In this document: positions 5,739 through 22,431 of the stretch, in pieces
How the letters are laid out: the number at the start of each line of letters is the position of its first letter
How positions within the stretch are numbered: the first letter of the stretch is position 1
Assembly (NCBI GenBank): GCA_947628875.1
Contig: CANRBP010000004.1
Coordinates: forward strand, 1-33,707
Origin: an uncultured Lachnospira sp.
GTDB taxonomy: Bacteria; Bacillota; Clostridia; Lachnospirales; Lachnospiraceae
Direction of reading: 5' to 3'
Length of the DNA stretch: 33,707 nt
Notes under the pieces: generated by a model
Database searches by the model: none
What the model saw: only the letters and a program-made list of their open reading frames with translations
Told to the model about the DNA's origin: nothing
Made by a program: the position numbers and the translations under genes

Positions 5739-5960
5739 TCACTGTTCAACTTCTATCATTTCGGCATCTGCTTTCCTCAAGGACAGCTCATACCCTCTTA
5801 CGGTTACTTCGACAGGATCGCCGAGCGGCGCCACTTTTCTCACAAATACTTCAACGCCCTTGGTTATCCCCATATCCATGATACGCCTCCTTACAGGGCC
5901 TTCACCGGCCAGTTTCTTGACCTTCGCGCTCTGTCCGCAGGCAACGTCCCTAAGTGTCAT
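5739..5960 (-). CDS. feoA: FeoA family protein
   Basis: MTLRDVACGQSAKVKKLAGEGPVRRRIMDMGITKGVEVFVRKVAPLGDPVEVTVRGYELSLRKADAEMIEVEQ. Confidence 0.93.
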   Translation of the reverse strand: MTLRDVACGQSAKVKKLAGEGPVRRRIMDMGITKGVEVFVRKVAPLGDPVEVTVRGYELSLRKADAEMIEVEQ

Positions 5961-6056
5961 TTTCTCTCCTCCCTTCGTGATATTCCCTGTATCTGCATGT
6001 AAAATCATACGGCATAAAATATGCCGGCCCAGGGAATAAAAATCCGCAAAACTTCT

Positions 6057-6269
6057 TTAAACCAGGATTTTGTCAGCCATATCCCTGCCTATGGCAACCC
6101 TTGAGTCCTTGATATTGACAATCAGGCTGCCGCCGGAATCAGAGATGACCCTTACCGACCCGCCGACAACAAAACCCAGCTTTTCAAGAAACCTGCGCGT
6201 TTCCTCTTTTCCGCCAATTTTTTTAATCGTATTATCAATTCCGGTTCCCGCCATTGTCAAAGGCATCAT
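6057..6269 (-). CDS. FeoA family protein (second copy)
   Basis: MMPLTMAGTGIDNTIKKIGGKEETRRFLEKLGFVVGGSVRVISDSGGSLIVNIKDSRVAIGRDMADKILV, SH3-like FeoA domain. Confidence 0.9.
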   Translation of the reverse strand: MMPLTMAGTGIDNTIKKIGGKEETRRFLEKLGFVVGGSVRVISDSGGSLIVNIKDSRVAIGRDMADKILV

Positions 6270-6302
6270 CTTTTCCTCCTTCCCCCTGTGTCATCTATGG
6301 TT

Positions 6303-6331
6303 AGTATATACAAACTTTTATTAGTTGTCAA
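6303..6331 (-). promoter_or_regulatory. promoter of feo operon with overlapping near-palindromic operator
   Basis: On minus strand TTGACA-17 bp-TATACT; GTTAGTATATACAAAC (6300-6315) overlaps the -10. Confidence 0.75.
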
Positions 6332-6358
6332 TAACATATTTTATTTTGAAGTTTCCGA

Positions 6359-6520
6359 ATTTTGTATTTTATCTGTGTCAAAAGGGCATGCTGCTGCGGC
6401 AGCATTGCCATTGTGCACAGAAATTACATTCGGAAAACTTGTTTTCCAGATGTAATTTTGTGCACAATCACCACATCACGTTCTGTGATTCGTGCTTTTG
6501 ACACAGATAAAATACAAAAT
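6359..6520. repeat. large palindromic element, copy 1 (multi-hairpin, ~162 bp)
   Basis: 26-bp perfect terminal inverted repeat ATTTTGTATTTTATCTGTGTCAAAAG / CTTTTGACACAGATAAAATACAAAAT enclosing three internal hairpins; homologous to 22218-22403. Confidence 0.9.
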
Positions 6521-6744
6521 ACGCACACAAACCAGGCGGCTTTATAATTTGATAATTTTTTACGGATATGTTAAACTATATAGGATAATGTTTGATAAAG
6601 AAGGGTGCATATTATTTAACATGCCATAATGCCGCCGGGCATTTAGCGCCATGAATGCCGCCCTTTGATATCCCTGTTTAATTTTACACTGGCGCTGCAT
6701 GTGCAGACGTGCATTTTTTATACAGCGCAGCTATGAGGAATATT

Positions 6745-14236: not shown

Positions 14237-14364
14237 AATTTATTGAGGCATATCCGTTTGGCACATATAATATATAAAATGCAGAAATTTTAAAATATAT
14301 ATAATATTTTATAGTGCAGTATTATACAGTACAATATTAATAAAACAGATATTGGTAAAACAGG

Positions 14365-22086: not shown

Positions 22087-22217
22087 CTTAATCCTCATTT
22101 CTGCGCTGTTTCTGCGCATATAAAAGGCAAATATAAAAAATATTTTAAATTTCCGTTCCGATAACCTATAACTTTATAATAAACATTTTCTGCAAGATAT
22201 GCAAGTACTAAATACCT

Positions 22218-22403
22218 ATGAGTTTCTGCATTTTGTATTTTGCCTGCGCCAAAAAGGCATGCTGCTATGGCAGCATTGCCATTGTGTACAGAAATCGCAT
22301 TCGGAAAACCAGTTTTCCAGATGCGATTTTGTACACAATCGCTACATCACGGAACGTGATGTGCGCTTTTGGCGCAGGCAAAATACAAAATGCAGAAACT
22401 CAT
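22218..22403. repeat. large palindromic element, copy 2 (multi-hairpin, ~186 bp)
   Basis: 37-bp perfect terminal inverted repeat ATGAGTTTCTGCATTTTGTATTTTGCCTGCGCCAAAA / TTTTGGCGCAGGCAAAATACAAAATGCAGAAACTCAT; internal hairpins homologous to 6359-6520. Confidence 0.92.
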
Positions 22404-22431
22404 TGCGTATTAACCCATAAGCGCAATAAAA

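Follow-up and report, generated by a model that had tools for sequence, protein, structure and literature searches.

Elements of the TnGBS/ISLre2 group (p-MULT 3), in the Mutator superfamily, insert 15-17 bp upstream of sigma-A promoters, and those of the ISKra4 group (p-MULT 4) show a similar promoter-upstream specificity; both groups produce 8-9 bp direct repeats throughout, and Mutator-type elements with near-symmetric ends are found with promoters on either side (PMC3942029). The window analysed here (the whole stretch of DNA, 33,707 nucleotides) contains two copies of an element of about 188 nt that likewise lies at a fixed distance upstream of sigma-70-type promoters, in either orientation and with 8-9 bp repeats. 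Compared with these groups it is far smaller, it is palindromic throughout, and 11-12 nt, not 15-17, separate its inferred true end from the -35 box; no transposase for it was found in the incomplete genome. Nor do we meet the terminal C that is conserved in p-MULT 3 and 4: the outermost conserved base is A at +1 (85%), with A (50%), G (29%) or C (2%) at +2, and the end assignment is uncertain by 1-2 nt. Given the shorter spacing, the lack of a terminal C and the failure to find a transposase, we liken the element to Mutator-type elements and do not class it among them.

With bacterial MITEs and palindromic intergenic repeats such as ERIC/RU-1 (127 bp; PMC2759123) the element shares short length, dispersed intergenic positions, strong folding, terminal inverted repeats and the absence of genes. 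What sets it apart from them is a promoter-upstream position held at the level of single bases, and arms and hairpins that co-evolve within each copy. The sequence of ERIC/RU-1 presumably differs from that of the element. A third likeness is to quasipalindrome correction. When a polymerase switches template between inverted repeats, the documented products are arm homogenisation and spacer inversion (PMC8604942), and reconstructed sequence histories have led to the proposal that such switching creates and maintains compensatory changes in RNA stems (PMC8794818). The element resembles these cases (PMC8604942, PMC8794818) in arm homogenisation and spacer or loop inversion that mimic compensatory mutation; unlike them, it shows the pattern in some 46 dispersed copies, all from a single mobile family, and at several nested levels of structure. 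We did not find this combination of features in the literature searched; the component processes are already known.

Element architecture and copies in the window

The element consists of an outer stem enclosing three hairpins, H1, H2 and H3 (Table 1). Two dispersed palindromes of this layout had been noted in a preliminary description of the window, and both are present; their RNA folds have z-scores of -11.2 (copy 1) and -16.1 (copy 2), none of 200 shuffled sequences folding equally well. We used the single-sequence fold in preference to the RNAalifold result, which pairs the base of H3 with that of H1. The extent first assigned to copy 1, 6359-6520, does lie on the element, but homology runs about 11 nt further out (nominally 6348-6531), the outermost 10 nt or so of the right terminus being decayed. 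The terminal inverted repeats of the family are TTGAGTTTCCGCATTTTGTATTTT, and the end sequence is TTGAGTTTCCGCATTTTG. We found no conserved ORF among the 46 copies examined, and an Rfam scan of the window matched no curated RNA family.

Table 1. Positions of the element copies, their parts and the neighbouring promoters within the window
Feature	Position (strand)	Remarks
Sigma-70-type promoter, feoA-like/feoB operon	6303..6331 (-)	-35 TTGACA 6331-6326, 17-nt spacer, -10 TATACT 6308-6303
Element copy 1	6348..6531 (+)	nominal ends, probably +2 nt each side; covariance-model match 195 bits
Copy 1 outer stem, left arm	6353..6382 (+)	alignment A1 columns 6-35
Copy 1 hairpin H1	6385..6409 (+)	arms GGCATGCTGC/GCAGCATTGCC, T bulged
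Copy 1 central hairpin H2	6410..6468 (+)	fold and alignment
Copy 1 hairpin H3	6469..6494 (+)	fold and alignment
Copy 1 outer stem, right arm	6497..6526 (+)	alignment A1 columns 151-180
Predicted outward promoter, other side of copy 1	6549..6577 (+)	TTGATA-17-TAAACT, offset 17; towards DtxR/MntR-type regulator ORF
Third element, decayed solo end	14250..14293 (+)	3' of parB-like ORF; terminal-repeat pattern, 3 mismatches; TTTGGCACATATAATATATAAAATGCAG
Predicted GGDEF-gene promoter	22176..22204 (-)	-35 TTGCAT 22204-22199, 17-nt spacer, -10 TATTAT
Element copy 2	22219..22402 (+)	nominal; probably 22217-22404; covariance-model match 214 bits
Copy 2 outer stem, left arm	22224..22253 (+)	alignment
Copy 2 hairpin H1	22256..22280 (+)	fold
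Copy 2 hairpin H2	22281..22339 (+)	fold
Copy 2 hairpin H3	22340..22365 (+)	fold; loop inverted relative to copy 1: GGAAC vs GTTCT
Copy 2 outer stem, right arm	22368..22397 (+)	alignment

Family size and distribution

The draft genome from which the window comes (1.69 Mb in 169 contigs, 72% complete) holds many more copies. BLAST with copy 2 found about 30 further places, and the covariance-model search suggested in the preliminary description, run here with 26 copies as the basis of the model, recovered 28 near-full-length copies together with a graded series of shorter ones. In all there are at least 46 copies, 28 of them near-full-length and at least 18 shortened or truncated, plus unpaired solo ends. 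The account of two copies was thus correct for both and understated the family, a third, decayed half-copy lying within the window itself.

The element appears confined to this genome. Covariance-model search found copies in none of 21 congeneric genomes, and BLAST found the element in none of 40 relatives; its terminal repeat occurs about 80 times in its own genome and 0-1 times per genome, a background level, in 97 relatives. A pattern search for the terminal repeat gave 48 forward and 49 reverse matches, where the control pattern gave 1 and 2. An exact-pattern scan of GTDB genome contigs returned a single unrelated match, in Roseomonas, and viral contigs, plasmids and phages did not match the element.

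About a dozen solo terminal repeats (loci L091-L109) were seen in the genome, several of them still beside promoter-like sequence; they suggest that elements are lost through deletion of one end, with the promoter-side end staying. We considered whether the unpaired repeats might instead be the ends of a transposase-bearing copy, but no pair of repeats encloses an interval of the size of a gene, and they look like truncated copies. One short copy (L057, 1984-2055) has diverged widely from the family in its palindrome (GGGATTACGTAAATTTGCATTTT), but its two arms still match.

Placement upstream of promoters

Beyond the left ends of copies 1 and 2, the -35 boxes of the feoA-like/feoB promoter and of the predicted GGDEF-gene promoter lie at distances of 16 and 14 nt, respectively. 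A similar spacing recurs across the family. Scanning outward from both ends of each element with a simple -35/-10 matrix, we found 26 matches whose -35 box lay 12-16 nt beyond the nominal end, where 1.6 were expected (p = 5e-23), the expectation being taken from offsets 17-106; 19 of the 26 fall at the peak offset of 13-14 nt, equivalent to 11-12 nt when measured from the inferred true end. The best promoter was at 10-16 nt in 27 of the 46 copies, as against 6.5% in shuffled flanks. By a looser count, which has no null of its own, a promoter-like site (score of at least 6) lies at offset 10-17 beside one end or both in 37 of 46.

Among copies in which one side clearly won, 12 have the promoter at their head and 10 at their tail, so that orientation relative to the promoter shows no strong preference. 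A clearly convergent gene pair surrounds only one of the 46 copies, by a crude ORF-based call. Promoters beside elements are still recognisable, and their sequences differ between copies, which indicates that they are host sequences; the genes downstream are mutually unrelated. A peak of this sharpness would not be expected from insertion tolerance alone, but would be from target choice by the transposition machinery.

The surroundings of copy 1 have some features of their own. Two small FeoA-like ORFs stand in tandem ahead of FeoB (5739-6008 and 6057-6269, minus strand), and a DtxR-type regulator ORF lies across copy 1 from the feo genes. FeoB shares 73% identity with a copy on a Roseburia plasmid, which points to Lachnospiraceae-like Clostridia as the likely host group; a 16S search of the assembly found no such gene. 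The promoter beside copy 1 (6300-6331) has GTTAGTATATACAAAC over its -10 box, where relatives have a conserved GTTAGTATATACTAAC-like site; this site before the feo genes is probably a DtxR/MntR-type iron or manganese box.

Target-site duplication and the search for a transposase

When the left and right flanks were compared position by position, a direct repeat of 8-9 bp emerged, its first position some 2 nt beyond the nominal ends: flanks matched in 39-57% of cases at nine consecutive positions and mostly in 15-35% outside them. A duplication flush with the nominal ends was rejected on the same scan, which placed the ends about 2 nt further out. The mean score of abutting repeats was 2.2, as against -0.8 +/- 0.36 for re-paired flanks, none of 200 re-pairings scoring as high. 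The duplications are imperfect or degraded in most copies, with near-perfect ones at L019 (10/10), L060 (9/9) and L009 (8/8). Copy 1 has no recognisable duplication because its right end is decayed. Here the congeneric genomes are informative: at 10 of their loci the feoA promoter is kept and the element is missing, and the element is therefore the derived state at copy 1. Short, non-coding and dispersed in many copies, with terminal inverted repeats and a target-site duplication, the element has the features by which MITEs are recognised.

A source of transposase was sought in the element's own genome and in relatives. Searches for ISLre2, IS256/Transposase_mut and ISKra4 transposases with PF06782, PF00872, NF033529 and NF033572 gave no match in the 72%-complete genome; PF06782 and NF033529 matched no control genome either. 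An autonomous partner with the same ends, which MITEs usually have but do not need, was found neither in the 72% assembly nor in the 97 relatives.

Matched arms and inverted loops

The compensatory differences between copies 1 and 2 that had been seen by eye are indeed there, in the outer stem at columns 24, 25, 29 and 31 and their partners and in the central stem at columns 69, 78 and 79, and covariation is found across the family. In the 26-copy alignment 97.4% of cells have standard pairing (shuffled mean 91%), 32 of 76 pairs have changed on both sides (13.7), and 137 cells are doubly changed (36.7); the observed values were reached in none of 500 shuffles, which leave shared ancestry in. 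Paired cells collapse to 31-54% in slid structures, and when the columns under test are left out of tree building, the best covarying pairs still call for 3-8 changes. Lack of further copies and of covariation had been named beforehand as what would tell against the palindromes being a copied or selected form; further copies and covariation are both present, in favour of the observation.

The matching is within copies. Outer arms are 94% identical within one copy and 78% identical between copies. Copies of 38-97 nt that have lost the three-hairpin interior mostly have arms that still match perfectly or nearly so, with private paired changes such as GTTGCC...GGCAAC (L054) and TTCTGCC...GGCAGAA (L050). 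H1 and H2, for their part, have small conserved bulges and mismatches that persist in most copies, so that either arms are corrected incompletely or some of the structure is retained on other grounds.

Loops, meanwhile, are inverted as whole blocks. The H3 loop is TTC or its reverse complement GAA across several subfamilies, and also inside a well-supported five-copy clade; parsimony on the maximum-likelihood tree gives eight inversions, although the number of independent events is uncertain because the element tree is poorly resolved. H2 loops occur as CAAG and CTTG, the H2 tip is inverted in L019 and L025, and L025 also has all of H2 inverted with respect to H1 and H3.

We consider it likely that the element is a MITE of about 188 nt, amplified in one species and set upstream of promoters, whose arms co-evolve by template switching. 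It would be a non-autonomous DNA transposon that multiplied in a single species, a member of a Clostridia genus that probably belongs to the Lachnospiraceae; a transposase acting in trans, possibly of the Mutator superfamily, would insert copies at the upstream edge of promoters. Within each copy, template switching at replication (or cruciform resolution) would copy one hairpin arm onto the other and may occasionally invert loops, and such arm copying would yield compensatory covariation over many columns with no need for RNA selection. The roughly 46 copies form a natural series with textbook-quality compensatory covariation, most likely without RNA selection, and they offer both a warning and a test case for covariation-based RNA discovery. 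They also suggest that promoter-upstream targeting, a habit of Mutator-type elements, is shared by miniature elements without genes, which can put a strong palindrome beside dozens of promoters in one species.

A possible objection is that folded DNA, as a hairpin or single-stranded intermediate, is itself the substrate of transposition, with structure selected during mobility and arms and loops reshuffled there. The conserved bulges of H1 and H2, the nested inversions (H3 loop, H2 tip, the whole of H2 in L025) and the matched arms would all be accommodated. We nevertheless think this unlikely, in that a duplication of 8-9 bp fits ordinary DDE transposition and copies of 38 nt without inner hairpins occupy equivalent positions upstream of promoters. 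A related version, in which the cloverleaf DNA fold is part of the mobility cycle (the folded strand being recognised, or replicated as hairpins) and the matched arms and nested loop inversions are by-products of transposition rather than of background replication errors, we regard as distinctly doubtful.

Improbable alternatives: host regulation, RNA selection and shared ancestry

The sharp position upstream of the -35 box, and the persistence of solo ends near promoters, could also be expected of a host cis-regulatory palindrome or extruding cruciform at about -50, kept by selection for promoter control. This is improbable: the congeneric species examined have none, though the feoA promoter is conserved in them, the flanks bear a target-duplication signal, the arm sequence is not conserved, and the downstream genes are unrelated.

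Very improbable, in our judgement, is a structured RNA (a regulatory RNA or mRNA leader) whose cloverleaf fold is under selection and which was spread by transposition, even though the fold is very stable, the covariation strong and the bulges in H1 and H2 conserved. Mutation in a stem yields G-U, which is tolerated in RNA, or A-C, which is not, with about equal chance, and RNA selection should leave an excess of G-U in stems. The stem mismatches comprise 22 G-T and 29 A-C, which are equally common (p = 0.40). Whole-block inversion of loops is also against RNA selection, as are the 38-97 nt copies without H1-H3 that keep matched arms and private paired changes, the lack of an Rfam match in the window, and the placement of the elements, which are upstream of the adjacent promoter and in either orientation. 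Judged from the pattern of variation (G-T and A-C mismatches in similar numbers, inverted loops, arm matching in deleted copies) and from the position upstream of the adjacent promoter, the covariation probably reflects DNA template switching and not RNA selection. The preliminary description had proposed either selection on a folded DNA or RNA form or its recurrent copying; the second comes close to the reading preferred here, that of a template-switching MITE, and the first, as far as it concerns RNA, is not supported, given the mismatches, loops, deleted copies, orientation and promoter-upstream position.

Shared ancestry alone, by which a few subfamilies would have inherited different palindromes, is extremely improbable: subfamilies do exist (the five-copy clade has 98/99 support) and the shuffles take no account of relatedness, but several covarying pairs need their 3-8 changes even on trees from which those columns were left out, and single copies have private paired changes.
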